A stretch of 15,894 nucleotides of DNA, from NCBI GenBank assembly GCA_002733945.2, contig NVXO02000003.1, forward strand, positions 63,992 through 79,885. The letters run 5' to 3'. Position 1 is the stretch's first letter, and each line of letters starts with the position of its first letter. The notes under the pieces were generated by a model, which was not told the DNA's origin, did no database searches, and saw nothing but the letters and a program-made list of their open reading frames with translations. The position numbers were made by a program, and so were the translations under genes. The DNA is from Sulfurimonas sp. (lineage in GTDB: Bacteria; Campylobacterota; Campylobacteria; Campylobacterales; Sulfurimonadaceae). Shown piece after piece: positions 1 to 15,894 of the stretch.

Positions 1-171
1 TGTTTGATATGCTGCTTTTTTGGCACTCTTGCTTACAAGTTTTTCAGCCTTAAAGGTCTGAAACTTTACAGCATCTACACCAGCATTTACGGCTACATCT
101 ATGAGCTCTTTAGCTAACTCTATAGAGCCGTTATGATTAACACCCGCCTCTGCTATAATAAAAACACTCAT
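1..171 (-). CDS. N-acetylneuraminate/legionaminate synthase family protein (5' part, cut by window edge)
   Basis: Only the first 57 residues are in the window; the rest lies beyond base 1. The start MSVFIIAEAGVNHNG (1-15) and the segment DAVKFQTFKAEKLVSK (33-48) are the N-terminal strands of the NeuB TIM barrel, which condenses phosphoenolpyruvate with a 6-carbon amino sugar to make a 9-carbon nonulosonic acid. The IIAEAGVNHNG form fits sialic/legionaminic synthases (NeuB, LegI) better than pseudaminic synthase (PseI). The ATG at 171 overlaps the stop of the upstream acyltransferase in an ATGA junction (168-171), so translation is probably coupled. Family is secure; the choice between NeuAc and Leg is inferred from the LegC-type aminotransferase two genes upstream. 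Catalytic residues further along and the C-terminal antifreeze-like domain cannot be seen. Confidence 0.9.
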   Translation of the reverse strand, partial: MSVFIIAEAGVNHNGSIELAKELIDVAVNAGVDAVKFQTFKAEKLVSKSAKKAAYQT

Positions 172-743: not shown

Positions 744-1885
744 TACATTACCACACTACTTGAGATATTAACTACTCTATCTTCAAGCCATAAAGCATTA
801 TCAAGGTTAGCTGTTTGTGCATCTTTGAACATATCGAGTCTATTCATAAGTCTCCATATTGAGCGAGTCATAATGCCATTGTCATTTGTGTATTTTAAAA
901 AACTATCTCTCTCCTCTTTATTTTTGAGAATGACTGCATTTAGCCAGTAGTTTGATTTGGAGTCTTTAGGCTCTTTGATAAAATCTAAATTACTATTTTT
1001 AAAAAATGTTTCATATTTACTTGCTAACTCTCTTTGTTTATCTATAAAGAGTGGTAGATTTTCCATCTGCGCAACGCCAAGAGCTGCTGCTAAGTTTGTG
1101 AGTCTGTAGTTGTAGCCTATCTCATCATGTATATACTCGTATGGGTGTGGAACTTTTGCCGTTGTTGTGATGTGTTTTGCTCTTTTTGCGAGTGCTTCAT
1201 CATCTGTCACGAGCATACCTCCACCACCTGTTGTAATGATTTTGTTGCCATTAAAACTAAATACACCTACTTTTCCAAAAGAGCCTGTATGTTTGCCTTT
1301 GTAGTAAGAACCAAGTGACTCTGCTGCATCTTCTACTACCGAGATATTATAAGCATCACATACCTCTACTATGGCATCTATTTTACAAGGGTGTCCAAAG
1401 GTATGCATTGGAACACAAGCTTTTATAATTTTATTTGTAGTTTTGTTAATGCAGTTTCTATCTTTGTCAACAGTTGTAAACTCTTCTAAAAAGGCTTTGA
1501 GTTTGGAGGGGGAGAGTCCTAAGGTATCTCTATCAACATCTACAAATATCGGTTTAGCATTACAGTAACTAATGGCGTTTGCAGTAGCTATGAATGTCAA
1601 AGGTTGTGTTATAACCTCACAATTTTTATCTACTCCTACAAGCTTTAAAGCAATGTGAAGAGCAGAAGTTCCATTTGAAGTGGCTACTGCATATTTAGTT
1701 CCACTAAACTTAGCTACCATCTCTTCAAACTCTGTGACAAACTTGCCAACACTCGATACAAAAGTAGAGTCTATAGTTTCGTTGACATACTTCTTTTCAT
1801 TGCCTATAAAGCGGGGTTCGTGTAGAGGTAAAAACTCTTTTGTTTGATACAAGTCTTGTATAAATTTTACTGTTTCTTCATACAT
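743..1885 (-). CDS. legC: LegC-family PLP-dependent aminotransferase
   Basis: 380 residues, DegT/DnrJ/EryC1/StrS fold (aspartate aminotransferase fold type I). The opening FLPLHEPRFIGNEKKYV (18-34) followed by STFVSSVGKFV (40-50) is characteristic of the LegC/NHT branch. Visible cofactor residues: GTSALH (72-77, phosphate loop), EDAAES (185-190, Asp186 to the pyridine nitrogen) and FNGNK with Lys215 as the Schiff-base lysine before ITTGGGG. It would transfer an amino group to C4 of a 4-keto-6-deoxy-HexNAc nucleotide, the product of the dehydratase encoded 3 bases upstream. The RBS GGAAAG lies in the end of that upstream gene. Intact, with no odd features. The symbol rests on recognisable family sequence; exact substrate (GDP- or UDP-linked) cannot be told. 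Confidence 0.88.
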   Translation of the reverse strand: MYEETVKFIQDLYQTKEFLPLHEPRFIGNEKKYVNETIDSTFVSSVGKFVTEFEEMVAKFSGTKYAVATSNGTSALHIALKLVGVDKNCEVITQPLTFIATANAISYCNAKPIFVDVDRDTLGLSPSKLKAFLEEFTTVDKDRNCINKTTNKIIKACVPMHTFGHPCKIDAIVEVCDAYNISVVEDAAESLGSYYKGKHTGSFGKVGVFSFNGNKIITTGGGGMLVTDDEALAKRAKHITTTAKVPHPYEYIHDEIGYNYRLTNLAAALGVAQMENLPLFIDKQRELASKYETFFKNSNLDFIKEPKDSKSNYWLNAVILKNKEERDSFLKYTNDNGIMTRSIWRLMNRLDMFKDAQTANLDNALWLEDRVVNISSSVVM

Positions 1886-1888
1886 AGT

Positions 1889-3076
1889 TTACATCTTTCC
1901 ATCAAGATACTTACCAGTCTCTTTATGTCCAAAATCAGGAAGGAGTTTAAAGAACTCTTCTACTATTTCCTCTTTTTCCCATTCTAAATTCTCTTTCATA
2001 TTTTTTATTTTATCCTCAAAAGAGTGAAGTAACTCTTCATTAAAATGTATTTCATTTTTTATAATGCCAAGATTTTCAAATCTATCCATATCCAAAGTTT
2101 CATTTTCAGTAAAAAACTCCTCAAAATCTTTCTCGCCTGTTGTGTCACTTTGTGTAAAAAGACAAGGCCATTTTCCCTCTTTTGGAAGTGTATATACAAG
2201 TTCTCTTGCCTCATCTTCGCTCTTACATAGATAGGGTTCATACCCCTTCTCTTTGAGATACTTCACTGCTATATCAGCAAAAGAGATGAGATTAAGTTCA
2301 GCACTCAGTTTTGGAAAAAAAATATCGCGATTTTCACCAAATATACAAGACATAAGACAGAGTTCACCTGATTCTTGAGGTGTTACAAAATAGCGTTTTA
2401 TATCATTTGGAGCTACTATGGGCTGTTTTTTTTCTATGCGTTGATTAAAGCCATGTAAAAGGGAACCATCACTAAATGCTACATTAGCAAACCGAGCCAT
2501 AGAGACTTTCATATCAAGGGAATTACGATGAACAAACATCTCCATAATTCGCTTACTCGCACCCATCATATTGACAGGGTTTGCTGCCTTGTCTGTAGAG
2601 ACACAGAAATATTTTTTCACTTCATTTTTTATGGATTGTTTGATAGTTTTATCTGTATTAAAAATATTGGTATCAATCATTCTCATAAGAGTAAAAGGGT
2701 CTTTTTCACTTCGGACATGCTTCAAAGCTGAGAGATTAAGAACATAGTTATACTTTCCATCAGCTTTTATAAAAGCATCATATTCAAGCGAGCCAATATC
2801 TAAAGCAAAAGTAGCAAAATCGCCATCAATGTAGCCAAATGAACTTCTTATGTCTCGAACCAATTCAACCATATTGTTTTCAGATATATCTACTACATGT
2901 AATTTTTTAGGTTGGCGTTTAAATATCTCTTTTGTAACAGCTTGACCAATGGAACCTGCTCCACCAATTACTAAAAATGTTGAAGATGCAACTATCTCTT
3001 TTAACCTAGTATTATGATTTGAAATGTCATTTGTAAATAACTCTTTTTTTCTTCCTATTAAACTTAATATACTCAT
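1889..3076 (-). CDS. NDP-N-acetylhexosamine 4,6-dehydratase (CapD/FlaA1-like SDR)
   Basis: 395 residues, extended short-chain dehydrogenase of the polysaccharide-synthesis (CapD/FlaA1/PglF) group, soluble form with no membrane segments. NAD(P)-binding loop GGAGSIG at 38-44; LSALKHVRSEKDP at 115-127; STDKAANP at 160-167; MGASK at 171-175. The catalytic YxxxK motif reads MxxxK (Met171, Lys175), a replacement known from the PglF/FlaA1 dehydratases, so it does not suggest inactivity. It converts UDP- or GDP-GlcNAc to the 4-keto-6-deoxy sugar, the first committed step of the operon. The C-terminal stretch, about 300-395, is charged and variable. The start overlaps the isomerase stop by one base. 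The position before LegC suggests a LegB role, although this is a different SDR subfamily from the RmlB-like LegB of Campylobacter jejuni. Confidence 0.85.
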   Translation of the reverse strand: MSILSLIGRKKELFTNDISNHNTRLKEIVASSTFLVIGGAGSIGQAVTKEIFKRQPKKLHVVDISENNMVELVRDIRSSFGYIDGDFATFALDIGSLEYDAFIKADGKYNYVLNLSALKHVRSEKDPFTLMRMIDTNIFNTDKTIKQSIKNEVKKYFCVSTDKAANPVNMMGASKRIMEMFVHRNSLDMKVSMARFANVAFSDGSLLHGFNQRIEKKQPIVAPNDIKRYFVTPQESGELCLMSCIFGENRDIFFPKLSAELNLISFADIAVKYLKEKGYEPYLCKSEDEARELVYTLPKEGKWPCLFTQSDTTGEKDFEEFFTENETLDMDRFENLGIIKNEIHFNEELLHSFEDKIKNMKENLEWEKEEIVEEFFKLLPDFGHKETGKYLDGKM

Positions 3077-3636
3077 TACTGTTTTTTCTTTTTGATATAG
3101 TATGTATAGATAATGTGATCAAGAATCATATGCATATCTTCTACTAGTCCGTACTCGTCTTTGGCTGTTTGAACATGGAAATTGATATCTGATTTTTTTT
3201 TGAGTTTTCCTCCATCAAAACCACTAAGACCTATAATCTTAGCACCCTGCTTTTTTGAGTAGTTTACAGCTTTTATGATATTTGGAGAATTTCCACTGCA
3301 AGAGATTGCAATTAGTATATCATTTTTATTTATTTTATCTTTGAGCTGCATATAAAAAACATTTTTGTAGCCAATATCATTTGCGATGGCAGAACAAACA
3401 GGTGTATTGTCACTAAGGCTTTCAACATCAAAATTTCTAATACTACGGCGTTTAAGTCCAACACCTAAGTCATTAACCATATGTGAAGCAGTTGCAGCAC
3501 TTCCACCATTGCCAACAATATAAATACGACCTTGAACATTTTCAAGAGCATCTATGATTTGAGTGACTGCTGTAATGTCTATCTCTTCTAGAGTAGACAT
3601 AAGATTTTTAATATATTTTTTCACAAACTTTTTCAT
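3076..3636 (-). CDS. GmhA-like SIS-domain phosphosugar isomerase
   Basis: 186 residues, the size of sedoheptulose-7-phosphate isomerase GmhA. Conserved pieces: NGGSAATASH (43-52), AIANDIGY (83-90), SGNSPN (114-119, phosphate loop), SGFDGGKL (138-145) and EDMHMILDH (166-174). GmhA converts sedoheptulose 7-phosphate to D-glycero-D-manno-heptose 7-phosphate. Aligned by memory to E. coli GmhA, the ligand/catalytic set His61, Glu65, Gln172, His180 reads His52, Asp56, Glu166, His174 here, so two of the four differ. It may therefore use another ketose phosphate, or belong to a sister clade. It is the first gene of the minus-strand operon and faces the plus-strand operon, which holds HldE-like and HddC-like genes. 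The RBS is weak; Met13 is a possible alternative start. SIS family certain, substrate open. Confidence 0.8.
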   Translation of the reverse strand: MKKFVKKYIKNLMSTLEEIDITAVTQIIDALENVQGRIYIVGNGGSAATASHMVNDLGVGLKRRSIRNFDVESLSDNTPVCSAIANDIGYKNVFYMQLKDKINKNDILIAISCSGNSPNIIKAVNYSKKQGAKIIGLSGFDGGKLKKKSDINFHVQTAKDEYGLVEDMHMILDHIIYTYYIKKKKQ

Positions 3637-3801: not shown

Positions 3802-5196
3802 TTGGAGTATAAAGATACATATTTTTTTAATGGACAGGTAGCACTTCAGGCAGCAAGTGAGCAAAACAGATATGGAGCACTTAAGCAGTTTTTACAAGTT
3901 TGCTACTATGATGGAGAAAAAATACAAAGTGATTTAATCAATCTCATTCATTTGCCCATAGGTAACTTAGTTGATGGTTTAGGGATGGGTACAGCTAGAC
4001 TCCCTACAGGTTTAAACTTAGGAGGACTAGAAGTATCAGAAGATGTTAGAATGAAAATTATTGAAAATTTTCGTATATCATTACGAAAGGCATATGAAAA
4101 AAGAAATGAATTTAACAGCTCTTATTATGAAGTCAGCAAAAATACGGAATTAAATTTTAATGAATCCTTAAGATTTTATTTGGTGGCAAATAAGAGTACA
4201 CAAGTTATGCAATATATTTCTTATAATGTTACCAAGGCATTAAAAGCTGCTGGATATAATGTTTTTTATGACCTGAATTATGGTATTGAAGATGAAAATT
4301 GTTTAAAAAATATGAGTCAATTTAATCCACATGTAACAATAAATATTAATCATTTAAATAATGATTTTCTCAGTCCTGATGTCTATAATTTTGTTTGGTT
4401 TCAAGATTTTATGCCTATTTTATTAGACAAGAAAAAAATGAAATTAAGAAAAAGAGATTTTATTTTTCATCTTACAGATGGGCTTGAGAAAAAACTTCAT
4501 GCAAAAAAGGTATTTTCAAGGTATCAAGGATTTTGTATTGATACAAGTACCTATAAACCAAATAAGAGTATCAAAAAGGAAAAAAAAATTGTATTTATAG
4601 GAAGTTCCTATATGAAAAATTTTCAAAATATACAAGCAGATCAAAAAGATTTTATTTGTGATTTAATATATCAGGCATATTTGAAAGATGGAATCATGCC
4701 TAGTAAAAAGAGAAGAAAAATTGCTAAGAAGTTTAAAATAGATGAGGTTTCTCTGGGGCATATATTTAATTATGTGGAACGCGATCTTGCACTATTGTAT
4801 ATTGTTCAAAATATGAAGGAGTATGAGATAGAAGTATATGGACCTGGATGGGATACTTATGAGGTAATGCATACTATTTATAAGGGGAGCCTATCGTATG
4901 GAGAAGAAATATCTAGAGTCTACAATAGTGCTATGTACTCATTAGTTTTAGGGGGATATGTGTTACAGCAAAGAACTTTAGAATCAGCAGCAAGTGGATG
5001 CATACCAATTGTTGTTGATAGTAGAATTAATGATACAATGGTACAAGAGTGCTACGAAGAGAGCTTGATATTTATTAAGACAGCGGATGACTTGCAAAAT
5101 GTACTAGATGAAGAACCAAATAGAGAATTAGAGTGTATTGTTAAATATAATAGTTATGATAAATTTGTTCAAACAATGAGAGGATTGATAAAGTAA
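3802..5196 (+). CDS. Putative GT-B glycosyltransferase (CgeB/GT1-like) with an extra N-terminal region
   Basis: 464 residues. From about 125 the chain looks like a GT-B transferase: NKSTQVMQYISYNVTKALKA (130-149), KKIVFIGSSY (261-270) starting the second Rossmann domain, then YNSAMYSLVLGGYV and RTLESAASGCIPIV (391-404), the donor-binding region of CgeB/group-1 transferases with the usual Glu. Residues 1-120 match no domain I recognise. Start: an in-frame TGA at 3796-3798 rules out anything further upstream, and TTG 3802 lies 8 bases after AGGGAGA (3787-3793); the next in-frame ATG is codon 62. The ATG at 3795 is in another frame and meets a stop after five codons. First gene of the rightward block, 2 bases before the next. 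Probably adds a sugar to a surface or flagellar glycan; donor and acceptor unknown. Confidence 0.75.
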   Translation: MEYKDTYFFNGQVALQAASEQNRYGALKQFLQVCYYDGEKIQSDLINLIHLPIGNLVDGLGMGTARLPTGLNLGGLEVSEDVRMKIIENFRISLRKAYEKRNEFNSSYYEVSKNTELNFNESLRFYLVANKSTQVMQYISYNVTKALKAAGYNVFYDLNYGIEDENCLKNMSQFNPHVTININHLNNDFLSPDVYNFVWFQDFMPILLDKKKMKLRKRDFIFHLTDGLEKKLHAKKVFSRYQGFCIDTSTYKPNKSIKKEKKIVFIGSSYMKNFQNIQADQKDFICDLIYQAYLKDGIMPSKKRRKIAKKFKIDEVSLGHIFNYVERDLALLYIVQNMKEYEIEVYGPGWDTYEVMHTIYKGSLSYGEEISRVYNSAMYSLVLGGYVLQQRTLESAASGCIPIVVDSRINDTMVQECYEESLIFIKTADDLQNVLDEEPNRELECIVKYNSYDKFVQTMRGLIK

Positions 5197-5198
5197 AT

Positions 5199-6329
5199 AT
5201 GAAAAAAATTATTTTGATTCCACCTGATGGCACATTTCAGAGGCGTGACTATTCTCTATATAGAATTGCAAAATGGTTAAAAAACAATGGTATTAATACA
5301 ACACTTCTTTACATAGAAAAAGAGTTTCTTGAAATTGACACAAGACTATTTGATTCGGTCGTGAAAAAAGAAAACTTGGAAGATATTGTGAAGCATTTAG
5401 AAATGCACTCCTATGATAAAATTTTACATAGAAGTTGGATGCACTCTTATGATTTCTCGGCACTCTTAGTTGAGAAGTTTGAAAATGTAATTATTAACAT
5501 TAAAGATTGGAATTTCGCTCCTAAGAATGTATATGAGTTTTTATTTCCAAATAGTGCAGATCATGTATCAATAGAATATATATTTCAAAATGCGGAGCTA
5601 ATACTTTCTCATTTTACGCAAGAACAGTCATTGTTGTGGGCAAAAGAGTATAAGACAGATTCTAGTAAGTTCATTACTTTTCCTGAGTATTGTAACAGTG
5701 CTTCTTTTAATGAAAAGCCTTTTCTCGCTTATGAAAACATCAAGTTAGTATATGCTGGAGTGATTTCTCCAACGGTATACAATGAAGATTATTTTCCAAA
5801 TAAAGCACATCTTCGTTCTATTAAAAAGTTGACAAAAGAGCAGATAAGTATTGATTTTGTTATGCCTGAACCTGTATATGAAAAAATGTATACATCTGAA
5901 TATTTTTTATATCATGATTTTATGTATGAGCATGAATTTAACAAGTATTTCTCTTTAGTAAAAGGAAAAATACTTGATGCAAGTATTTTAAATCAGTATC
6001 ATTTTGGTTTTTTTGAACTTGAGACGAGTGGTTTAAATCATGATTTGTATAAATATGCGATAACAAGTAAATTTGCATTTTATTTAGAAGCTGGTTTACC
6101 TATATTAATAAATAAAAAGTTTGTATCTATAGCTAGACTTGTTGAGAAGTATCAACTAGGTATTGTTTTTTCTAATGATGATTTAGACTATATGACTAAG
6201 GTATTAAGTATTTCTCAGTCTAAGTATGATTCTTTTGTAGAAAATATTGCACAATATAGAAAAAAATTTACATATTCTGCAGAGCAATTAGAAATAATTT
6301 TTGAAAAGAGATATTATGAATCAAACTAA
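5199..6329 (+). CDS. Putative glycosyltransferase (GT-B-like)
   Basis: 376 residues, soluble. It begins KKIILIPPDGTFQRRDYSLYRIAKWL, a first Rossmann strand and helix as in GT-B enzymes. The segment IKLVYAGVISP (about 181-191) looks like the start of the second Rossmann domain. TSKFAFYLEAGLPILIN (about 289-305), followed by IARLVEKYQLGIVFSNDDL, resembles the C-terminal donor-binding part of group-1 transferases. No catalytic residue can be named with confidence. It begins 2 bases after the preceding glycosyltransferase and overlaps the following radical SAM gene by 14 bases, so the three are probably one transcript. Very AT-rich: bases 5881-5940 hold 11 G/C of 60. The function is inferred from fold-like features and neighbours only. 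Confidence 0.6.
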   Translation: MKKIILIPPDGTFQRRDYSLYRIAKWLKNNGINTTLLYIEKEFLEIDTRLFDSVVKKENLEDIVKHLEMHSYDKILHRSWMHSYDFSALLVEKFENVIINIKDWNFAPKNVYEFLFPNSADHVSIEYIFQNAELILSHFTQEQSLLWAKEYKTDSSKFITFPEYCNSASFNEKPFLAYENIKLVYAGVISPTVYNEDYFPNKAHLRSIKKLTKEQISIDFVMPEPVYEKMYTSEYFLYHDFMYEHEFNKYFSLVKGKILDASILNQYHFGFFELETSGLNHDLYKYAITSKFAFYLEAGLPILINKKFVSIARLVEKYQLGIVFSNDDLDYMTKVLSISQSKYDSFVENIAQYRKKFTYSAEQLEIIFEKRYYESN

Positions 6330-7890
6330 AATTCTCTTAGTTGCACCTACTTATATAGATAAACCAAATACAATGTATTTTCCAATTGGGATGGCATATT
6401 TAGCATCGTATATGAAATCAAAAAATTATTATGTCGATGGCTTAAATTTAAGTAACTATGGTCTTGATTCTGGTTTAAAAGAGATACAAAAAAAGCTTAT
6501 GTCACAAGAGTATAATATTATAGGTATTGGTGCATTAACAGTTGCATTTTCACAAATAGAGCGCCTGGTATTAAGTATTAGAGAATTTACTGATGCTAAA
6601 ATTGTATTCGGAGGAGGTGTTACATCTTGTGAGAGTGAATTGGTATTAGAAACACTAAAAGCAGATTATATGGTGATTAGTGAAGGGGAGCTGATTTTTG
6701 AAGAGCTAGTAGCACACATTGAAGACCCTATATCCAATAAACTACCAAAAGGTGTATGGTCTAAAAAAGGTAAAAAAGTTATATCTAATAGTGAGAGCTA
6801 TGCTATAGATAATTTAGATGATTTGCCTTTTCCTGACTATGAGATAATGGGGATTAAAGAGTTTATAAATTTGCAACCAGATATTGGATGGAATTTACAT
6901 AATACAGATATGTCTATCGGCAAATATATGCCAATTTCGGCTAGCAGGTCTTGTCCATTTAAGTGTACTTTTTGTCATCATGCAGGTATGGGCGATTACA
7001 GAAAACATTCAGTATCTTATGCAATTTCTTTTATTAAAGAGATGTTAAAAAGATACAAAGTAACACATTTTTCTATTTATGATGAATTGTTTTCTATGAA
7101 TAAAAGTAGAGTAATGGAGTTTTGCGATGCTCTAAAACCTTTGAATATTACTTTCATGTGTCAACTACGTGTAGATCAAATTGACATAGAGATGTTGAAA
7201 AATATGAGGGATGCCGGGTGTGTTGAGATATCATATGGGATAGAAAGTGGTAGTCAAAAAGTAATAGATAGCATGCATAAAAAGATTACTGTAGAACAGA
7301 TTGAAAATGCAGTAAAACTGACACGTGAGGCAAAAGTTGGCATTCAAGGCAACTTTTTATTTGGAGATCCAGCTGAAACTAAAGAGACTGTTCAAGAGTC
7401 TTTAGAATTTCAGAAAAAGAATAAACTTTATTTTGCAGATTGGTCGATGGTAATTCCTTATCCAGGAACAGTACTTCATAGATTAGCACTATCTGAAAAT
7501 TTGATAAAAGATAGAGTAGAGTTTATTAAAGTTGTTGCTGACACATCAAAATATTTGTGGAATAATCCAATCAATCTAACAGTTTTTTCAGATCAAGAAT
7601 ATATAGAAGAATATACAAGACTCCGAGAACAAAACGATATAAATCATAGAAAGGTTCTCTCTGAAATTATAGAAGCAAAGAGAGTAAATTCAAAGTATTC
7701 TAATCTTAAAATCAGATGTCCAAATTGTTCAAGTTTAAGTCAGTATGAGAAATTACCATTTCCTTTAAATAGTATGAAAAATCTTACGGAGGATAGAGAA
7801 TCATTTTTTGGTTTTTTAGGTATGAATATTGTTTGTCATCACTGTCGACAGAAACATCATCTTTTACCAAAAAATAGGGTAAAGTTGTAG
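6316..7890 (+). CDS. B12-binding-domain radical SAM protein with C-terminal zinc-ribbon-like Cys4 segment
   Basis: 524 residues. The N-terminal 1-150 or so resembles a cobalamin-binding Rossmann domain as found in BchE/P-methylase-type proteins: KILLVAPTY (5-13), YFPIGMAYLASYM (21-33), IIGIGALT (68-75) and ISEGE (121-125). A DxHxxG loop for axial His ligation was not seen, which is common in this class. The radical SAM core begins with CPFKCTFC (Cys213, Cys217, Cys220) for the 4Fe-4S cluster and continues to FGDPAET. Two CxxC pairs near the C terminus (Cys468/471, Cys507/510) look like a zinc ribbon. ATG 6316 is preferred over TTG 6301 because AAAGAG (6305-6310) precedes it. Likely methylates or otherwise modifies an unactivated carbon of a sugar or lipid; substrate unknown. 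The end may be truncated: see the open stretch from 7878. Confidence 0.8.
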   Translation: MNQTKILLVAPTYIDKPNTMYFPIGMAYLASYMKSKNYYVDGLNLSNYGLDSGLKEIQKKLMSQEYNIIGIGALTVAFSQIERLVLSIREFTDAKIVFGGGVTSCESELVLETLKADYMVISEGELIFEELVAHIEDPISNKLPKGVWSKKGKKVISNSESYAIDNLDDLPFPDYEIMGIKEFINLQPDIGWNLHNTDMSIGKYMPISASRSCPFKCTFCHHAGMGDYRKHSVSYAISFIKEMLKRYKVTHFSIYDELFSMNKSRVMEFCDALKPLNITFMCQLRVDQIDIEMLKNMRDAGCVEISYGIESGSQKVIDSMHKKITVEQIENAVKLTREAKVGIQGNFLFGDPAETKETVQESLEFQKKNKLYFADWSMVIPYPGTVLHRLALSENLIKDRVEFIKVVADTSKYLWNNPINLTVFSDQEYIEEYTRLREQNDINHRKVLSEIIEAKRVNSKYSNLKIRCPNCSSLSQYEKLPFPLNSMKNLTEDRESFFGFLGMNIVCHHCRQKHHLLPKNRVKL

Positions 7891-8051
7891 AAACTTTTAA
7901 TGATTCAAACATTCAAAAATTAAAAGAGAAGAAGTTTTTGATTTTGCCTTGGGTTGAATACAAAGATGCATATGCATGCTTAGTTAAAAATGGCATTAAA
8001 GAACAAAATATTTTAAGCTGGAATTATTTCGGTGCACATAGTACTGATTAA
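7878..8051 (+). pseudogene. Stranded C-terminal coding remnant in another frame
   Basis: From the stop-free position 7878 to the TAA at 8049-8051, this frame reads 57 codons of protein-like sequence: GKVVETFNDSNIQKLKEKKF, then LILPWVEYKDAYACLVKNGI, then KEQNILSWNYFGAHSTD. It has no ATG or credible RBS at its beginning. Its pattern (hydrophobic strand, PW, helix, NGI, strand) looks like the end of a Rossmann-like domain, as at the tail of some methyltransferases. It overlaps the last 13 bases of the radical SAM gene. One extra G in the GGG run at 7877-7879 would fuse the two frames without a stop. Likely explanations are a frameshift that shortened the radical SAM protein, or an internal deletion that left its tail; a sequencing error is also possible. 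Confidence 0.5.
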
Positions 8052-8083
8052 AATATTGATATAGTCAAAAGGGATAGTCATAA

Positions 8084-9178
8084 ATGAGTGATAAATATAA
8101 TATAGATTCGCATAAACTGATCTACCATCCTGTTGAGGTTTCGAAATGGTATGAAGCAGAGGGTGATTGGGAAAAACAGAAGAAGATTTACCCCATATAT
8201 GTTGAAATAACACCTATAGGTTCGTGCAATCATCGCTGTACATTTTGCTCTGTTGATTATATAGGCTATAAAAGCATTAAGCAAGATGAGGAAGTTTTAA
8301 AAAAGACAATTCGTGAAATGGCAAAACTTGGTGTAAAAAGTATTATGTTTGCAGGAGAAGGGGAACCAACTTTATATAAACCACTTCCAGAAATTCTGAA
8401 TGTTTGTAAAGAAGTAGGTATAGATACCTCCCTTACGACAAATGCAGTAGTAATGGATGCAGAGAGTATAGATAACTATTTGAAAAACTGTAGCTGGATT
8501 AAGGTGAGTATTAATGCAGGTGATAGAGAGACATATGCTGCGGTACATCAGACAAAGGCGGCAGACTTTGACAGGGTTGTAGAGAATCTTACCTTGGCTG
8601 CAAAGATTAAAAAAGAGAAGGGGTATAGCTGTACTGTGGGCTCTCAAATGTTACTACTTCCTGAGAATGTAGATAGTGCACTTAGTTTGGCAAAAACAAT
8701 GAGAGATGCAGGTGTTGATTATCTTGTTATAAAGCCTTATACACAGAGTCTTTACGGAACATCAAGGGTATATGAGGGTCTGACTTATAAGAGTATGATG
8801 TATTTAGAGAGTGAACTCAAAAAGTTAGAGACTTCAGAGTTTAGTGTCATCTTTCGTGCAAACACTATGAAAAAATTAGAAGAGGAGCAGCAGCCTTATA
8901 ATAAGTGTTACTCTACACCATATTTTTGGTCTTATATAATGGCAGACGGCTCCGTTTATGGGTGTAGTGCCTATCTTGGTAATGAGAAGTTTGCTTACGG
9001 TAATATAAATCAACAGAGCTTCAAAGAGATTTGGGAATCACAAAAACGCCAAGAGGGTGTAGCTTTTGTTGAAAATGAACTAGATATCTCTATGTGTAGA
9101 AAAAATTGTCGTATGGATGAGGTCAATCGTTATCTTTGGAAGCTTAAAAATCCAAATCCACATGTCAATTTTATTTAA
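8084..9178 (+). CDS. Radical SAM enzyme with twitch-type (half-SPASM) auxiliary cluster domain
   Basis: 364 residues. Radical SAM cluster CNHRCTFC (Cys48, Cys52, Cys55); GEGEPT (91-96) is the SAM-binding GGE-like strand end. C-terminally a CX13GX4C pattern (Cys275 to Cys294) plus CRKNC (Cys338, Cys342) gives four cysteines, enough for one extra Fe-S cluster. This is the twitch arrangement known from sugar/aminocyclitol enzymes such as BtrN. It ends in VNFI. AAAAGGGA (8067-8074) is a good RBS for ATG 8084. First of eight closely spaced genes, 10 bases before the transketolase N subunit. It shares layout and C-terminal tail with the enzyme at 11725, so the pair is paralogous. Likely oxidises, dehydrates or rearranges a sugar or sugar phosphate in the cytoplasm; the reaction is not known. 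Confidence 0.85.
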   Translation: MSDKYNIDSHKLIYHPVEVSKWYEAEGDWEKQKKIYPIYVEITPIGSCNHRCTFCSVDYIGYKSIKQDEEVLKKTIREMAKLGVKSIMFAGEGEPTLYKPLPEILNVCKEVGIDTSLTTNAVVMDAESIDNYLKNCSWIKVSINAGDRETYAAVHQTKAADFDRVVENLTLAAKIKKEKGYSCTVGSQMLLLPENVDSALSLAKTMRDAGVDYLVIKPYTQSLYGTSRVYEGLTYKSMMYLESELKKLETSEFSVIFRANTMKKLEEEQQPYNKCYSTPYFWSYIMADGSVYGCSAYLGNEKFAYGNINQQSFKEIWESQKRQEGVAFVENELDISMCRKNCRMDEVNRYLWKLKNPNPHVNFI

Positions 9179-9188
9179 GGGAGTAGGA

Positions 9189-9986
9189 ATGCTACAGAGT
9201 GAAGATATACGAAAACAAACTATTAGACTCTCTTGCGAAACAGGAGCAGGACATTTAGCACCAGCACTCTCTACTGTTGAACTTCTCACAACTCTCTTTA
9301 ATGAGTACCTTCAGTTTAATCCTGATAATCCAAAGGATGAGAGTAGAGATAGGTTTGTGATGAGTAAGGGGCATGGTGCTTATGCTTACTATGTAATTTT
9401 AAATGAACTTGGCTTTTTACCCAAGGAAGAGTTAGAAAATTTTAACACAGAAAAAGCATCTATTATGGGATGTTTGGTACAAAATAATGATTATATGATA
9501 GAAGCTTCTACAGGCTCTTTAGGACATGGCCTTCCTTTGGCTGTAGGGATGGCACAATCTTTTAAAATTCAAAACAAAACAAACAGAGTAATCTGTATGG
9601 TTGGTGATGGTGAGATGCAGGAGGGGAGTAATTTTGAAGCAATGATGCTTGCATACCGCTTTAAACTCGACAATCTGCTAGTTATAATAGATGCAAATGA
9701 ACTACAGGCTATGGGAAGAGTAGAAGATGTTGCCCTAGATAATGACAGACTCTCAAAAGTTTTAAGTGGCTTTATAGATAAAAACTACTTTGATATAGAT
9801 GGGCATGATGAGTCTAAAATAGCTGCGGCATATAGAGCATTTTATGAGACAAAAAGTGAGCATTTTAGTATGATTTTTGCTCGTACCATTAAGGGAAAAG
9901 GAGTAGAGCTTTTAGAGGGCTCTTCTAAACACCATTTTCGCTGTCCTACACTCGATGGGTATGTACTGGAGGATGAAGATGAGTAA
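9189..9986 (+). CDS. Transketolase, N-terminal (thiamine diphosphate-binding) subunit
   Basis: 265 residues, the normal size of a split transketolase N half. GAGHLAPALS (19-28), RDRFVMSKGHG (53-63), STGSLGHGLPLAVG (107-120) and GDGEMQEGSNFEA (139-151) with Asn170 in IIDAN are the classic motifs; GDG to N is the Mg-ThDP diphosphate site. Transketolases move a two-carbon ketol unit between sugars. ATG 9189 is chosen: GGAGTAGGA lies directly upstream, and an earlier in-frame ATG at 9117 would run into the preceding gene. It overlaps the C-terminal subunit by 8 bases. Placed among radical SAM and sugar-nucleotide genes, it is more likely dedicated to building a special sugar than to the pentose-phosphate pathway; that is inference from context. 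Confidence 0.9.
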   Translation: MLQSEDIRKQTIRLSCETGAGHLAPALSTVELLTTLFNEYLQFNPDNPKDESRDRFVMSKGHGAYAYYVILNELGFLPKEELENFNTEKASIMGCLVQNNDYMIEASTGSLGHGLPLAVGMAQSFKIQNKTNRVICMVGDGEMQEGSNFEAMMLAYRFKLDNLLVIIDANELQAMGRVEDVALDNDRLSKVLSGFIDKNYFDIDGHDESKIAAAYRAFYETKSEHFSMIFARTIKGKGVELLEGSSKHHFRCPTLDGYVLEDEDE

Positions 9987-10464
9987 GCTAATTTCTAAAC
10001 AAGAGGTTATGAAATACCTCTATCCGTACTTTGAAGAGAATGAGAAGATGGTGCTTCTCGCCGGAGATATGGGCTTTGCTGTACTTGATAGCTACTTTGA
10101 ACATTCAAAGCGTGCTTTTAATACAGGAATAAATGAACAAGCAACAGTTGGAATGGCTGCAGGTATGGCACTGACAGGGATTTCTCCTATTATTTACTCA
10201 CAAGTTCCTTTTATAACTATGCGGGCATTTGAACAGCTGCGTTATGATGTAAATGAACATAATCTTAATATAAAAATAGTTGGAGTAGGGGCAGATAACT
10301 ATTTTGCTCCACTTGGTAGAAGTCACTGCATGGATAGTGATGATATAACACTCATCGGAATTCTTAAAAACTTTTTAATTCTCTCTCCGACAAGAGAGAC
10401 TATAAAAGAGGATATACAAAAGATGATTGACTATGATGGACCTGTCTATATGAGGTCTCTTTAG
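9979..10464 (+). CDS. Transketolase C-terminal subunit, short form with pyrimidine-binding domain only
   Basis: 161 residues, about half of the usual 300-320. It contains the ThDP pyrimidine-binding domain: LLAGDMGF (26-33), FNTGINEQ (47-54) with Glu53 as the glutamate that activates the cofactor, AAGMALTG, then PLGRSHCMDSDDI (111-123) and LSPTRE. After GPVYMRSL the gene stops; the third, transketolase_C domain is absent, and the next gene starts 2 bases later with an unrelated SDR. So the loss is clean rather than a visible frameshift. ATG 9979 has GGAGG (9968-9972) six bases ahead; the ATG at 9973 is too close. It should pair with the subunit encoded immediately upstream to form a two-domain ThDP enzyme. 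Donor and acceptor unknown; pyruvate-type or ketose donors are both conceivable. Confidence 0.85.
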   Translation: MSKLISKQEVMKYLYPYFEENEKMVLLAGDMGFAVLDSYFEHSKRAFNTGINEQATVGMAAGMALTGISPIIYSQVPFITMRAFEQLRYDVNEHNLNIKIVGVGADNYFAPLGRSHCMDSDDITLIGILKNFLILSPTRETIKEDIQKMIDYDGPVYMRSL

Positions 10465-10466
10465 CG

Positions 10467-11456
10467 GTGCGTTATTTAGTACTAGGTAGTAACAGCTTTT
10501 CAGGGGGATCTTTCATCGCATATCTGCTTGAGCATGAGATAGAGAGTGAAGTTTTTGCAGTGAGTCGCTCAAAAGAGTATGAAAAAGCTCTGCTTACATA
10601 TAAAAATCATCCAAAAGCTGCAAATGTTACTTTTTATCAATATGATTTAAACAGAGATTTAGAGCAGATATTATTATTAATAGAAGAGTATAAGATAGAA
10701 TATATAGTAAACTTTGCAGCTCAGGGGATGGTGGCACAGAGTTGGGAGAATCCAGCTCAATGGATAGAAACTAATACTCTATCACTCACAAAACTTTTGA
10801 GCAAAATTTATAAATTTCCTTTTATACAGAGGTTTGTACAGGCCTCAACACCGGAAGTCTATGGAGCATCTTTAGATATCAAAGAGTCAATGTGTATGGC
10901 ACCATCTTCTCCTTATGCTGCTTCAAAGGCGGCAGCAGACATGATGCTTTATAGCTACTTTAAGACACATGCTTTTCCCGTCTGTTTTACCCGTAGTGCA
11001 AATGTTTACGGTAGATACCAACAACTCTACAGAATTATTCCCAAGACTATAATGATGATACATAAATCAGAGCAGTTGGAGTTACATGGAGGAGGTCTTG
11101 CAACAAGAAGTTTTATTCATATTGATGATGTCTCACATGCAACACTAAAAATTCTCAAAGAGGGAAAAAATGGTGAAATTTACCATATTAGTAGTACGAA
11201 GAGTATAACTATTTGTAATTTGGTCGATGTGATATGTCAAGAGATGGGAGTCTCCTTTGAAAAAAGTGTCAAAGTAGGTATTCCAAGAGCTTCTGAAGAT
11301 ACGATTTACCTTATGAATGCAGATAAGTTGGAAAATGAACTCTCTGTCACTCCTCAAGTATCACTGCTTGATGGTATTAGAGATGTGATTGAGTGGATAG
11401 AAAGAGATTTTGAGATACTCAAAGAGTTTCCGGATTTTTATATACATAAACACTAA
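10467..11456 (+). CDS. NAD(P)-dependent epimerase/dehydratase, extended SDR (RmlB-like)
   Basis: 329 residues. Nucleotide-binding loop GSNSFSGGSF (7-16), NFAAQGMVAQSW (82-93), STPEVYG (127-133), catalytic PYAASK with Tyr150 and Lys154, RSANVYGRYQ (176-185), and SFIHIDDV (215-222). The layout is that of sugar-nucleotide 4,6-dehydratases and epimerases. RmlB has Asp-Glu in the STDEVYG stretch; here the Asp position is Pro129 with Glu130 kept, so an epimerase or a GDP-mannose-dehydratase-like mechanism is possible. GTG 10467 is the start, 2 bases after the transketolase stop, with TGAGG (10451-10455) as a distant RBS. Likely acts on the nucleotide sugar made by this operon, creating or using a keto group. 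Substrate unknown. Confidence 0.85.
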   Translation: MRYLVLGSNSFSGGSFIAYLLEHEIESEVFAVSRSKEYEKALLTYKNHPKAANVTFYQYDLNRDLEQILLLIEEYKIEYIVNFAAQGMVAQSWENPAQWIETNTLSLTKLLSKIYKFPFIQRFVQASTPEVYGASLDIKESMCMAPSSPYAASKAAADMMLYSYFKTHAFPVCFTRSANVYGRYQQLYRIIPKTIMMIHKSEQLELHGGGLATRSFIHIDDVSHATLKILKEGKNGEIYHISSTKSITICNLVDVICQEMGVSFEKSVKVGIPRASEDTIYLMNADKLENELSVTPQVSLLDGIRDVIEWIERDFEILKEFPDFYIHKH

Positions 11457-11468
11457 AGGATTGAGAGA

Positions 11469-11747
11469 ATGGATGAACGTTATGAGTCACAAGAGCTTCA
11501 AGAGTGGAAAAAGCTCTCACAAGAGGAACAATTTTCACAGGTGCAAGCTTTAAGTACAAAGTACATAGAACAGTTAGAACCTATATTTGTACGAGATCAG
11601 TCTATTCGAGTAGCTATGCATATACCAAAGAGTGCGTATTATGAAACACTTGTAGATTATGAAAAATATTTAAGAGAAAATTTGGGAAATATTCCACTGA
11701 TTGTTTTAGTTGAGGAGAAAGCAGATGAAAACAAACGTAGACAATAA
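11469..11747 (+). CDS. Small protein of unknown function, 92 residues
   Basis: I do not recognise this protein. It is charged and mostly helical in appearance up to about residue 40 (ELQEWKKLSQEEQFSQVQAL), has IRVAMHIPKSAYYETLVDYEKYL in the middle and a hydrophobic strand NIPLIVLVEE near the end. No cysteines, signal peptide or membrane segment. ATG 11469 has AAAGGA (11455-11460) and GAGAG upstream. Its last 23 bases overlap the radical SAM gene at 11725, whose RBS GAGGAGA (11712-11718) lies within it, so the two are probably translationally coupled. That suggests a partner or helper of the radical SAM or SDR enzyme. Its codon use and setting make a chance ORF unlikely. Confidence 0.65.
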   Translation: MDERYESQELQEWKKLSQEEQFSQVQALSTKYIEQLEPIFVRDQSIRVAMHIPKSAYYETLVDYEKYLRENLGNIPLIVLVEEKADENKRRQ

Positions 11748-12843
11748 ACTTATACTTGATGCAACAAAAATTTATTGGCACCAAGAACGTATAAAAGAGT
11801 GGGAAGAGGGGAAAAGAATAGCTCCGATTACTATAGATATGGCACTGACACGAGCCTGTAATTACGGATGTCACTTCTGTTATGCCCGTCTACAGGAGAA
11901 TGATAGATTTGATATTACCGAGGAGGTGATAGAGAACTTTTTAGTCGATTGTGCAGAGATGGGTGTCAAGGCTATTAGTCTTGTAAGTGATGGAGAGAGT
12001 ACACTCTCTCCTGTGTATGAGTACACTATCATTCGTGGTTCAGAACTTGGAATATCCATGGCAGTCGCTACCCATGGGTACAATACCCGTTATGAATCTT
12101 TAGAGAGAATTTTACCACACTTAACATACCTTAGAGTCAATATATCTGCAGGGGAACCTAAACGCTATGCAGAGATTATGGGTGTAAAAGAGAGCTATTT
12201 TCATCAGGTAGTAGAAAATATAAAAGATATGGTAGAGATAAAAAAGAAAAATAATCTTGATGTCACTATAGGCATGCAGATGGTTCTAATGCCAGAAGAC
12301 GCAGATCAGATTATTCCACTTGCTAAACTTGGAAAAGAGATACGACCTGATTATCTTGTTATTAAACACACGAGTGATAGTGAAGATGGTGCTTTGGGAG
12401 TGGACTACTCAAAATATGCAGCATTGGATTCTCTCTTACATGAGGCAGAAGCTTATAGTGATGAAGAGTACCAAGTAAGTGTCAAATGGTCTAAAATAAA
12501 CAGTGAAGGAAAACGCAGTTATCAGCAGTGTTATGCACCACCATTTCAAATTCAAATATCAGGTTCTGGTCTTATCGCACCATGTGGGATGTTTTTTAAT
12601 GAAAAATATAGTCGTTTTCATATAGGAAATATTACACAAACACGATTTAAAGACATTGTTGCAAGTGATAAGTACTGGGAAGTTATGAACCATTTAGCTT
12701 CGCCAAATTTTGATGCACAAACTATGTGTGGTTCTTTATGTCTACAGCATAAGGTGAATGAATTCCTAGATGATTATAAAAAAGGCAAACATAGTCTCTC
12801 AATACCGACAGGACCAAAACCACAGCACTTGAATTTCATATAG
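11725..12843 (+). CDS. Second radical SAM enzyme with twitch-type auxiliary cluster domain
   Basis: 372 residues from ATG 11725, which has GAGGAGA (11712-11718) ahead; the TTG at 11710 contains part of this RBS and is rejected. CNYGCHFC (Cys45, Cys49, Cys52) binds the radical SAM cluster, VSDGEST (87-93) follows as the GGE-like stretch. CX12GX4C (Cys269 to Cys287) and CGSLC (Cys335, Cys339) make a four-cysteine twitch site. The chain ends in HLNFI, nearly the HVNFI end of the enzyme at 8084; shared segments include LVIK in mid-chain and GNI before the last cysteines. The two are clear but diverged paralogues, so they probably perform two different or successive steps on the same sugar. Product unknown; dehydrogenation (as in BtrN), dehydration and epimerisation are candidates. 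Confidence 0.85.
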   Translation: MKTNVDNKLILDATKIYWHQERIKEWEEGKRIAPITIDMALTRACNYGCHFCYARLQENDRFDITEEVIENFLVDCAEMGVKAISLVSDGESTLSPVYEYTIIRGSELGISMAVATHGYNTRYESLERILPHLTYLRVNISAGEPKRYAEIMGVKESYFHQVVENIKDMVEIKKKNNLDVTIGMQMVLMPEDADQIIPLAKLGKEIRPDYLVIKHTSDSEDGALGVDYSKYAALDSLLHEAEAYSDEEYQVSVKWSKINSEGKRSYQQCYAPPFQIQISGSGLIAPCGMFFNEKYSRFHIGNITQTRFKDIVASDKYWEVMNHLASPNFDAQTMCGSLCLQHKVNEFLDDYKKGKHSLSIPTGPKPQHLNFI

Positions 12844-12853
12844 TAGTATAGAT

Positions 12854-14266
12854 ATGAAAAAAGTATTTGTGAATGGAGATTTTAATATTTTACATCCAGG
12901 ACACCTGCGTTTACTAAAATTTGCAAAAGAGAGTGGCGATTATCTTGTTGTTGGTGTTAATAGTGATAATGGTAATAATAAGAGCATAAGTCAAGAGATT
13001 CGTTTAGAGTCTATTAATGCGACCAGTTATGTAGATGAAGCTTTTATTTTAGAGACATCGGCAGTTGATTACATTAAAAAGATGAAACCAGATATTGTAG
13101 TTAAAGGAAAAGAGCATGAGAATAAAGAAAACTTAGAGTTAGAGACACTCCACTCTTATGGTGGAAAACTTCTTTTTAGCTCTGGAGAGATAGGTTTCTC
13201 TTCTATAGACTTGTTACGACAGGAATTCCTTACTTTGAGTAACAACTTAAAGCATAGTTCAGAGTACTTACAAAGACATAAGCTACAACTTAATAGTTTA
13301 AAAAAATATATGGATGCATTTTCTAGACTTAAAGTCTTGGTTATTGGTGATACAATTGTAGATGAGTACATTACTTGTGAGCCTCTTGGCATGAGTCAGG
13401 AAGATCCAACCATAGTTGTAAGTCCAATAGTTACAAATAAATTTATTGGTGGTGCCGCAATTGTTGCTGCTCATGCTAAGAGCTTAGGTGCTTCGGTGAA
13501 ATTTATTTCAGTAGTTGGTGATGATGAAAACAGAGACTATGTCCAAAAAGAATTAGAGTCTTTGAAGATAGAAAGCTCTCTCTTTTGTGACAATACACGA
13601 CCTACGACACTTAAACAACGATTCCGTGCAAGTAATAAGACACTACTTCGTGTAAATCATTTGAAGCAACATAGTATCTCTAAAGATATAGAAAATGAGA
13701 TATTAAGAAATATAAAAAACCGTATAAATGATGTCGACTTGATTCTTTTTTCAGATTTTAGTTATGGATTATTGACAGATAAGATTATACAACGTATTAC
13801 AAAAATAGGCCTAGAGAAAGGTGTTTTAATGGCAGCTGATTCACAAAGCTCTTCACAGGTTGGAGATATAGCTAAATTTAATAACATGATGTTAGTTACC
13901 CCTACTGAAAGAGAGATACGACTCTCTTTAAATGATTTTAAATCAGGTTTAGTTGTACTTTCAGAAGAACTTGTAAAGAAAACAGCTGCTAAGTATGTGT
14001 TTACAACTCTTGGAGCTGAAGGAATGATGATCTATAATACATCTAAAGATAAACTATTAACAGACAATATTAAGGCTCTTAGTTTAGGAGTAAAAGATGT
14101 AAGTGGAGCAGGGGACTCCTTGTTGACATGTAGTGCTATGGCTCTTGCTGTTGGTGCAGATATTTGGCAAAGTGCTTACTTAGGTTCTATTGCTGCTGCG
14201 ATTCAAGTGAGTCGTGTAGGGAATATTCCAATGAAGCAAGAAGAGATACTTCAAGAGTTAGAATAG
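12854..14266 (+). CDS. Fused nucleotidyltransferase-PfkB sugar kinase (HldE/RfaE-like, domains in reverse order)
   Basis: 470 residues. Residues 1-125 or so are a cytidylyltransferase-like domain (VNGDFNILHPGH, 6-17, with the HxGH motif; DIVVKG 80-85), as in the C-terminal half of HldE. A linker of about 30 residues follows, then a PfkB kinase domain from about 160: VIGDTIVDEY (163-172), MSQEDPTIVV (180-189), FIGGAAIVAAHAKSLGA (197-213), TTLKQR, and GAGDS (418-422) with the catalytic Asp. E. coli HldE has the same two activities and nearly the same length, but kinase first. It should phosphorylate a sugar (or sugar phosphate) at C1 and transfer ADP or CMP to it. ATG 12854 starts 10 bases after the previous stop with no strong RBS; it ends 1 base before the next gene. 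The heptose substrate is a guess from homology. Confidence 0.83.
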   Translation: MKKVFVNGDFNILHPGHLRLLKFAKESGDYLVVGVNSDNGNNKSISQEIRLESINATSYVDEAFILETSAVDYIKKMKPDIVVKGKEHENKENLELETLHSYGGKLLFSSGEIGFSSIDLLRQEFLTLSNNLKHSSEYLQRHKLQLNSLKKYMDAFSRLKVLVIGDTIVDEYITCEPLGMSQEDPTIVVSPIVTNKFIGGAAIVAAHAKSLGASVKFISVVGDDENRDYVQKELESLKIESSLFCDNTRPTTLKQRFRASNKTLLRVNHLKQHSISKDIENEILRNIKNRINDVDLILFSDFSYGLLTDKIIQRITKIGLEKGVLMAADSQSSSQVGDIAKFNNMMLVTPTEREIRLSLNDFKSGLVVLSEELVKKTAAKYVFTTLGAEGMMIYNTSKDKLLTDNIKALSLGVKDVSGAGDSLLTCSAMALAVGADIWQSAYLGSIAAAIQVSRVGNIPMKQEEILQELE

Positions 14267-14267
14267 G

Positions 14268-14972
14268 ATGAGAGCATTACTCTTAGCCGCAGGGCTTGGA
14301 ACTCGTTTAAGACCTATTACTGATTCAATTCCTAAGTGTTTAGTTCCACTCAATGGAAAACCTCTTTTAGAGTACTGGTTGGATAACTTAAGTAGTGTTG
14401 GAGTGACACAGTTTTTGATAAATAGCTCTTATTTACATGAGCAAGTAGAAGATTATGTTAAAAACTCTCCTTATAAAGAACAGATAAGCTTAGTGTATGA
14501 AAGCGAGCTATTAAATACAGCGGGTACTTTACTTAAAAACAGGGACTTCTTTAAAAATGAAGCTTTTATGTTAGTTCATGCAGATAATTTATGTTTTTGT
14601 GATTTTAATTCTTTTTTACAATCGCACAAGAACCGAGATACTAAATATGATATTACAATGATGATATTTCATACTGATACACCATCATCTTGCGGTATAG
14701 TAGAGGTAGATAAAAATTCTATAGTGCAGAACTTTTATGAAAAAGTACAAAACCCACCCTCAAACCTTGCAAATTGTGCTATTTATATATGTGAACCAAA
14801 CATATTTACTTTTTTAGACTCCTTAAAAAAAGAAAACATAGATTTTAGTAATGAAGTACTACCAAAGTACTTAGGAAGAATAAATACTTTTCTTAACGAT
14901 GTATATCATCGAGATATAGGTACAGTAGAAAGTTATGAAATAGCAAAATCTGATATAAAGAAATTTATTTAG
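14268..14972 (+). CDS. Sugar-1-phosphate nucleotidyltransferase (HddC/GMP-like)
   Basis: 234 residues, one NTP_transferase domain. LLAAGLGTRLRPITDSIPKC (4-23) is the GxGTRxxP...PK signature; the PK lysine binds the triphosphate. MLVHADNL (about 102-109) gives the metal-binding Asp. The length matches HddC-type D-glycero-D-manno-heptose-1-phosphate guanylyltransferases and short mannose-1-phosphate guanylyltransferases, lacking a left-handed helix or PMI domain. It starts one base after the fused kinase gene, so the two are likely partners in nucleotide activation of the operon's sugar, although having both an HldE-like transferase domain and this enzyme hints at two separately activated sugars. 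Last gene before the flagellar fliD promoter; no terminator hairpin is evident after it. Confidence 0.85.
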   Translation: MRALLLAAGLGTRLRPITDSIPKCLVPLNGKPLLEYWLDNLSSVGVTQFLINSSYLHEQVEDYVKNSPYKEQISLVYESELLNTAGTLLKNRDFFKNEAFMLVHADNLCFCDFNSFLQSHKNRDTKYDITMMIFHTDTPSSCGIVEVDKNSIVQNFYEKVQNPPSNLANCAIYICEPNIFTFLDSLKKENIDFSNEVLPKYLGRINTFLNDVYHRDIGTVESYEIAKSDIKKFI

Positions 14973-15044: not shown

Positions 15045-15894
15045 ATGGGAATTAGTGCATTAGGTACAGGGTCAGGAATATTAACACAGGACTTATTAGA
15101 TAAGCTACGAGCTTCAGATGAAGCTGTACAAATAACACCGATTGATTTAAGTATAGCTTTTGAAAATGATAAGAAAAATGCTTTTGAGATATTAGATGCA
15201 AAAATAACAAACTTTAATGATTCTGTAAATGCATTAAAAACACCAGCACTTTTTGATGAGAGAACTGTTGATGTTACTGGTACTTCAGTTGGGGTTACTG
15301 CTGCTGCAAATAGTGATTTACAAGATTTTACACTTGATGTGACACAACTAGCGACTAAACAGATTGAACAATCAGGTTCTTTTGGTACTACAACTGACCT
15401 TATAGCAACTGCAGCAGGTAGTATGAACTTAAATGTTGATGGAGTTGATTTTACTATAAATTATGATGCTACAACTACACTAAGCGATTTAAAAGCCTCT
15501 ATTAACACTGTTGCAGGTGATAAGGTAAATGCCACTATAGTTCAAATTGCCACAGGAGACTATAGACTCTTTTTAAACTCTGCTGATACAGGGAGTACAC
15601 AAGATATTACAATCACTGACACCGATGGGAACTTATCAGATGATGGGGGAACAACAGCTGGAGGTACAAAACTAACAACAGGTTTAACAGCTGTACAGAC
15701 AGGTGTGGATGCAAACTTTACTTATAATGGACAGGCTATTGTCCGTAGTTCTAATAACATTACAGATTTAATTACGGGCTATGATATAACACTTCAAGAG
15801 CTGGGAGTTTCTCAAGTAAGTGTATCACAAAACACTCAAAATATACTTGATAGAGTTGATAGTTTTGTAACAAAGTACAATGATTTAATTGATG
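15045..15894 (+). CDS. fliD: Flagellar hook-associated protein 2, filament cap FliD (3' end outside window)
   Basis: The first 283 residues are present. The N terminus MGISALGTGSGILTQDLLDK is the FliD_N type, with the epsilonproteobacterial GSGILTQD form, continuing with long polar helix and DSVNALKTPALFDERTVDVTG. From about residue 75 there are Thr/Ser/Asp/Gly-rich beta segments typical of the exposed cap domains; QNTQNILDRVDSFVTKYNDL (near 265-282) begins the FliD_C coiled region. FliD forms the cap under which flagellin subunits fold at the filament tip; it is exported by the flagellar type III system, so the absence of a signal peptide is expected. AAAGGA (15033-15038) is the RBS and a sigma-28 promoter lies directly upstream, so it is transcribed apart from the glycan genes. 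The reading frame is open to the window edge. Confidence 0.93.
   Translation, partial: MGISALGTGSGILTQDLLDKLRASDEAVQITPIDLSIAFENDKKNAFEILDAKITNFNDSVNALKTPALFDERTVDVTGTSVGVTAAANSDLQDFTLDVTQLATKQIEQSGSFGTTTDLIATAAGSMNLNVDGVDFTINYDATTTLSDLKASINTVAGDKVNATIVQIATGDYRLFLNSADTGSTQDITITDTDGNLSDDGGTTAGGTKLTTGLTAVQTGVDANFTYNGQAIVRSSNNITDLITGYDITLQELGVSQVSVSQNTQNILDRVDSFVTKYNDLID

Follow-up and report, generated by a model that had tools for sequence, protein, structure and literature searches.

Tertiary alcohols can be built on keto-sugars by enzymes that use thiamine diphosphate (ThDP), and the sections of a 2025 review devoted to such branching name YerE-like decarboxylases, alpha-keto acid dehydrogenases 2 and split-gene transketolases (PMC12247030). 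In those sections, branching by split-gene transketolases is still a proposal; all 13 candidates come from Streptomycetes and none has been tested in vitro. In this study, we analyzed a 15,894-nucleotide stretch of a Sulfurimonas sp. genome (the window; contig NVXO02000003.1, positions 63,992 to 79,885 of the forward strand), in which eight closely packed genes at 8084–14972 on the + strand encode two radical S-adenosylmethionine (SAM) enzymes, a split transketolase, nucleotide-sugar enzymes and a small protein. Homology and gene neighborhood suggest that this cassette could specify a dedicated pathway to a nucleoside diphosphate (NDP)-activated heptose with a two-carbon branch (a nine-carbon skeleton with a tertiary alcohol), probably decorating flagellin, a proposal whose chances we judge to be evenly balanced. 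The features concerned are as follows, with the starts of TKN (9189) and rSAM2 (11725) adjusted to those of homologs:

8084–9178, +: rSAM1, radical SAM enzyme with a C-terminal four-Cys (SPASM/twitch) domain; Pfam Radical_SAM and SPASM
9189–9986, +: TKN, ThDP-binding half of a split transketolase; Pfam Transketolase_N
9979–10464, +: TKC, pyrimidine-domain half, 161 residues; Pfam Transket_pyr only
10467–11456, +: SDR (short-chain dehydrogenase/reductase), GTG start, RmlB-like NAD sugar dehydratase/epimerase type; Pfam GDP_Man_Dehyd/Epimerase; motifs STPEVYG and YAASK
11469–11747, +: small protein, 92 residues; only the C-terminal and probably Nfu-like domain of a three-part NifU-like family
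11725–12843, +: rSAM2, radical SAM enzyme with a BtrN-like four-Cys auxiliary domain; Pfam Radical_SAM and SPASM
12854–14266, +: NTK, nucleotidyltransferase fused before a PfkB sugar kinase; Pfam CTP_transf_like and PfkB
14268–14972, +: NT, HddC/RmlA-like sugar-1-phosphate nucleotidyltransferase; Pfam NTP_transferase
3076–3636, −: GmhA-like phosphoheptose isomerase; the genome encodes two
3802–5196, +: GT1 glycosyltransferase, weak Glyco_trans_1_2; several loci have it between gmhA and rSAM1
15045–15893, +: fliD, FliD_N and FliD_C, cut by the window end; context, outside the pathway

The open reading frame coordinates agree with a preliminary description of eight genes lying 1–12 bases apart or overlapping, and fliD is the next gene downstream. 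The family labels given there match Pfam and NCBIfam for all genes except the 92-residue protein. The limits it set for the cassette, 8084–14972, proved too narrow, as GmhA (25 of 48 related loci) and GT1 (10 of 48) often accompany the set. Search queries began one codon off the refined starts, at 9186 for TKN and 11728 for rSAM2 (query 11728–12843).

Comparison across genomes revealed that the clustering of these genes exceeds chance. An rSAM2 scan of a genome collection yielded 30 loci in Campylobacterota, Pseudoalteromonas, Alphaproteobacteria, Elusimicrobia, Lachnospiraceae/Clostridiales, Halodesulfovibrio and two archaeal lineages, to which further loci (numbered with an L) were added through whole-genome searches and plasmids. 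Fifty-one loci, chosen by rSAM2, were entered and 48 counted (47 with rSAM2): L056 (the same place as L021) and the short L012 and L018 were dropped, and L058 was retained although its rSAM2 is under the 50% limit; the 51 did not include the window itself, L082 (the same place as L013) or L084 (whose rSAM2 relative is at 37%). A ThDP enzyme was present in 45 of the 48 loci versus 1 of 20 control stretches, and the nucleotidyltransferase-kinase fusion in 41 of 48 versus none of 20; the controls, hand-picked 20-kb stretches at round positions (19 of the 20 from the window's phylum), held a single lone TKN-type match and nothing else of the set. A GalE-like SDR and rSAM1 were each found in 34 of the loci and the small-protein family in 26. 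These counts are descriptive and not independent, owing to close relatives among the loci (L030/L074, L006/L050, L047/L048, L007–L009), and the labels used to read gene order and neighbors are rough as they rest on few references.

Among 397 genomes of the window's phylum, rSAM2 occurred in 13 and rSAM1 in 23 (E limit 1e-90 for both) and NTK in 17 (1e-100). The phylum was taken to be Campylobacterota, since relatives of Sulfurimonas and Arcobacter carry the closest rSAM2 loci that bear a name. In the stretch fetched around each place, a ThDP gene lay near rSAM1 in 23 of 24 cases and near NTK in 16 of 18, the exceptions being L053 and an 8.5-kb contig, and NT accompanied NTK in all 18. rSAM2 was scarce in other groups: with the query genome counted in every case, it occurred in 1 of 295, 3 of 337 and 7 of 149 genomes. 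The preliminary description had named scattering of the homologs in other genomes as what would speak against it; instead, the orthologs co-travel in several phyla.

TKN and TKC have the hallmarks of a split-gene transketolase, with separate Transketolase_N and Transket_pyr genes, a ThDP motif and a conserved Glu. The best PDB match of TKN is the split transketolase 6yak, and relative to the genome's own full-length transketolase it keeps the GDG...N motif and several His residues, presumably catalytic. TKC keeps the Glu of GINEQ, which we take to be catalytic, and in the eight rows shown none of the TKC His residues lined up with the His of the THDS motif, presumably a sugar-phosphate-binding residue, although this part of the alignment is gapped. 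Pfam detected no Transketolase_C domain in the window's TKC, whereas a relative in L021 (8159–9070) has one.

Three types of ThDP enzyme alternate between loci (split transketolase, E1 alpha/beta pair, and acetolactate synthase (ALS) type with a single chain), and at least seven switches between types fall on the rSAM2 tree, a quick tree in which 10 of 47 inner branches are open. A pair of aminotransferases, DegT1 and DegT2, occurs in 11 of the 48 loci and never together with rSAM1; all six combinations of rSAM1 or DegT pair with the three ThDP types exist, with ALS plus rSAM1 and transketolase plus DegT in one locus each. A 3-dehydrase assignment for DegT1 and DegT2 (His in place of Lys) was ruled out by the Lys present in every aligned row. 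The strongest argument that the ThDP step would be the carbon branching of a keto-sugar, and not the supply of a sugar phosphate, is that three ThDP superfamilies exchange beside one radical enzyme. A putative ThDP carboligase clusters here with NDP-sugar enzymes, as in ThDP branched-sugar pathways.

Both radical enzymes, which are 31% identical to each other, carry four conserved C-terminal Cys residues and a SPASM match over the Pfam cut-off, and an auxiliary cluster is predicted for each. Conservation is at least 97% for Cys 48/52/55 and 275/294/338/342 of rSAM1 (33 rows) and for the CX3CX2C motif of rSAM2, C44/C48/C51 (49 rows). Among solved folds, rSAM2 is nearest to DesII and BlsE, with SkfB level with them; its four-Cys domain has a profile match to BtrN (E 0.004), and the DesII model TIGR04426 (curated at 450 bits) was missed by both rSAM1 (46.7 bits) and rSAM2 (27.6 bits). 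In BtrN-type dehydrogenases, the four-Cys-ligated auxiliary cluster of the twitch domain is the electron acceptor.

A strict pairing of the two enzymes was not found, with 11 of 23 rSAM1 genomes having no rSAM2 at E 1e-90. The 12 places in those genomes all have an MT1 and/or rSAMa gene (L140–L142 MT1 only, at 35–36%). A different radical SAM enzyme of ~355 residues (52–55% identical to that of L084) occurs with rSAM1-type and transketolase genes in L138, L139, L143–L148, L150 and L152, where rSAM2 is missing; it is mostly accompanied by a ~220-residue methyltransferase, the two forming an alternative module. A second rSAM1 paralog spans two adjacent open frames in L021 (3984–5071), L057, L143 and L144, and a single frame in L145–L148 and L152. 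Upstream of the cassette, window positions 6301–7890 encode a B12-binding radical SAM protein, and similar proteins recur in several related loci.

The link to heptose comes from GmhA and NTK. GmhA matches phosphoheptose isomerases, is present in 13 of the 18 NTK places of the window's phylum and belongs to the cassette set. It has a 36% paralog on contig C3 (G000:C3), where an HldE that exceeds its cut-off and the genome's only detected GmhB lie nearby, and NTK is a paralog of that HldE with the domains in reverse order. The genome thus has another heptose set, next to which the isomerase and the kinase/nucleotidyltransferase of the cassette are second copies in function type. All three activating and modifying enzymes score under curated cut-offs: NTK for HldE (216.4 versus 345 bits, TIGR02198; 70.7 versus 181.5, TIGR02199), NT for HddC (91.9 versus 300, NF049965) and SDR for RmlB (211.7 versus 365.1, TIGR01181). 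The GalE-like SDR found in most loci has the motif SSSCYG, while the window-like RmlB type is present in 5 of the 48, and the two never occur together in the 18 NTK places. A GmhB-like HAD phosphatase is encoded in six Lachnospiraceae/Clostridiales loci.

Other genes were noted around the window's cassette and its relatives. A second sugar module (168–3076, −) comprises a PglD-like acetyltransferase, a DegT aminotransferase and a Polysacc_synt_2 dehydratase, and such a dehydratase also adjoins the cassette in L047, L138, L139 and L150. The L053 cassette, for which no ThDP gene was shown, contains two ATPase_2 (PF01637) genes (8051–9172 and 11348–12487, −). About 7 kb beyond rSAM2 on an Azospirillum oryzae plasmid (L083, 22337–26573) lie genes for asparagine synthetase, lasso peptide B2 and PqqD-like proteins, indicative of a lasso peptide cluster.

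The small protein, unknown in the preliminary description and indeed without a Pfam or NCBIfam match, could be placed by family alignment and fold match as the end of a NifU-like family. This end is conserved and predicted to be folded; the three-part family ranges from 92 to ~385 residues, has an IscU fold in the middle domain of its full-length members and matches Nfu-type domains at its C-terminus, the part that alone makes up the window copy and is probably Nfu-like. A conserved set of cluster-ligating Cys residues is absent, the best Cys column covering 14 of 19 longer rows and the next 4 of 19, and the window copy is Cys-free. The gene adjoins rSAM2 in the loci read. We had considered a split-off Transketolase_C, given the absence of this domain from TKC and the adjacency of the two genes in some loci; this was rejected on the match to Nfu-type folds, the L007 relative having no Pfam match and the L006 relative no NCBIfam match.

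In the pathway we propose, each step of which is drawn from homology and gene neighborhood, GmhA would convert sedoheptulose-7-phosphate to heptose-7-phosphate, the NTK kinase would phosphorylate C1, the genome's GmhB would take off the 7-phosphate, and NT or the N-terminal domain of NTK would make the NDP-heptose. SDR may then oxidize, dehydrate or epimerize it. Hydrogen-atom abstraction at a CH-OH of the ring by rSAM2 and/or rSAM1, with electron transfer to the BtrN-like auxiliary Fe-S cluster, would give a ketone. To this ketone the split transketolase would add a hydroxyacetyl unit, whereas the E1-type or YerE/ALS-type enzymes of other lineages would transfer an acyl unit. The second radical SAM enzyme, or elsewhere the two DegT aminotransferases, may finish the sugar. 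The small protein would serve rSAM2 as a partner in docking or cluster loading and not as an enzyme. More broadly, we tentatively suggest, at somewhat under an even chance, a modular class of branched-sugar pathways in which radical SAM dehydrogenases form a ketone on an NDP-heptose, any of three ThDP superfamilies branches it, and a NifU-like protein without cluster Cys residues assists the radical enzyme.

Several observations weigh against this heptose pathway. NTK is absent from 9 of the 24 rSAM1 places of the window's phylum, one of them in Helicobacter cinaedi, and two archaeal loci have radical SAM and transketolase genes but no NTK, NT or GmhA. Conversely, L149 combines NTK and SDR with an E1 alpha/beta pair and has neither rSAM1 nor rSAM2. 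The places with rSAM1 and transketolase genes but no heptose genes therefore suggest that the branch chemistry serves other sugars too. Flagellin glycosylation fits the window because the cassette adjoins fliD; since fliD or fliS lies near 9 of the 51 loci searched, flagellin is a likely target here but not a general one. The activated two-carbon-extended, branched or radical-modified sugar for flagellin or another surface glycan that had been suggested in the preliminary description thus gains from the co-travel, the ThDP exchange and the position beside fliD, its chemistry remaining putative; the heptose link and the rSAM1-transketolase places outside it had been missed.

Sedoheptulose-7-phosphate, on which GmhA acts, is a normal product of transketolase, and many loci hold both enzymes. 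The split transketolase might accordingly supply this ketose phosphate, or octulose-8-phosphate, to the isomerase, while the radical enzymes epimerize, deoxygenate or dehydrogenate an NDP-sugar and no branch is formed. We consider this unlikely, as the E1-type and ALS-type enzymes of equivalent clusters would not, by known chemistry, yield a ketose usable by GmhA, the genome has its own full-length transketolase, transketolase genes also occur without GmhA or NTK, and no TKC His aligns with that of THDS. A peptide modification pathway, in which rSAM2 matures the small protein or another peptide in the manner of ribosomally synthesized and post-translationally modified peptides, would suit the SPASM domain, weak maturase matches, the presence of SkfB and SuiB among the top folds and the small frame immediately upstream. 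It is very improbable given the sugar enzymes in nearly all loci and the 22 of 48 loci in which the test used detected no small-protein relative, and the family alignment and fold match ruled out the small protein as a precursor.

An unlikely alternative is that SDR provides the ketone for the ThDP step and the radical enzymes act after branching, epimerizing, dehydrating or rearranging the branched NDP-sugar. SDR-made 4-keto-sugars are the usual ThDP acceptors in the relevant sections of PMC12247030 and PMC10338323, DesII deaminates its own substrate according to those of PMC11434129/PMC3715490, and L149 has NTK, SDR and an E1 pair but neither radical enzyme. The Glu in the STPEVYG motif of the window's SDR is one we take to be typical of dehydratases, whereas the GalE-like SDR of most loci lacks it and may leave no ketone. 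The four BtrN-like auxiliary Cys residues also point to net oxidation by the radical enzymes.

If the proposed pathway is correct, transketolase-type branching of keto-sugars, called still pending and listed only in Streptomycetes in section 9 of PMC12247030, would be represented naturally in Campylobacterota, Pseudoalteromonas, Lachnospiraceae and possibly also archaea. A single surface-sugar pathway would unite radical SAM with ThDP chemistry, heptose-plus-C2 glycan residues would be predicted, and an Fe-S scaffold fold would have been recruited to a role without cluster Cys residues. No paper on this gene set was seen among the open-licence articles listed by literature searches. The preliminary description knew of no characterized pathway with it, and the words "radical" and "heptose" are absent from the main text of the branched-sugar review (PMC12247030).

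Among known systems, the HldE/GmhA/HddC route of heptose activation shares domain types and gene company with the cassette, from which it differs in the domain order of NTK and in the cut-offs that NTK and NT miss. DesII, the TDP-4-amino-4,6-dideoxyglucose ammonia-lyase of desosamine biosynthesis, acts on a nucleotide sugar and can dehydrogenate TDP-quinovose, but has a single Fe-S cluster according to the relevant sections of PMC11434129/PMC3715490, whereas rSAM2, 13–16% identical to it, has four further conserved Cys residues. BtrN, the radical SAM dehydrogenase of butirosin biosynthesis, whose substrate is 2-deoxy-scyllo-inosamine in the same sections, has low identity to rSAM2 and is outranked by other radical SAM enzymes over the whole fold. 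The IscU/NifU and Nfu Fe-S scaffolds share the middle-domain fold, and probably the C-terminal fold, of the small-protein family, which differs in having no conserved cluster Cys residues and in its place beside rSAM2. The pathways to yersiniose (YerE), to aldgamycin, paulomycin and trioxacarcin (alpha-keto acid dehydrogenase 2) and to miharamycin and amipurimycin (proposed split-gene transketolase) resemble the cassette in combining NDP-sugar enzymes with a ThDP carboligase from one of the three shared superfamilies, as far as they are set out in PMC12247030. Judged by its sequence, the cassette would be a variant of these ThDP branched-sugar pathways, to which it adds two four-Cys radical SAM enzymes, a heptose-type kinase/nucleotidyltransferase and a NifU-like protein.
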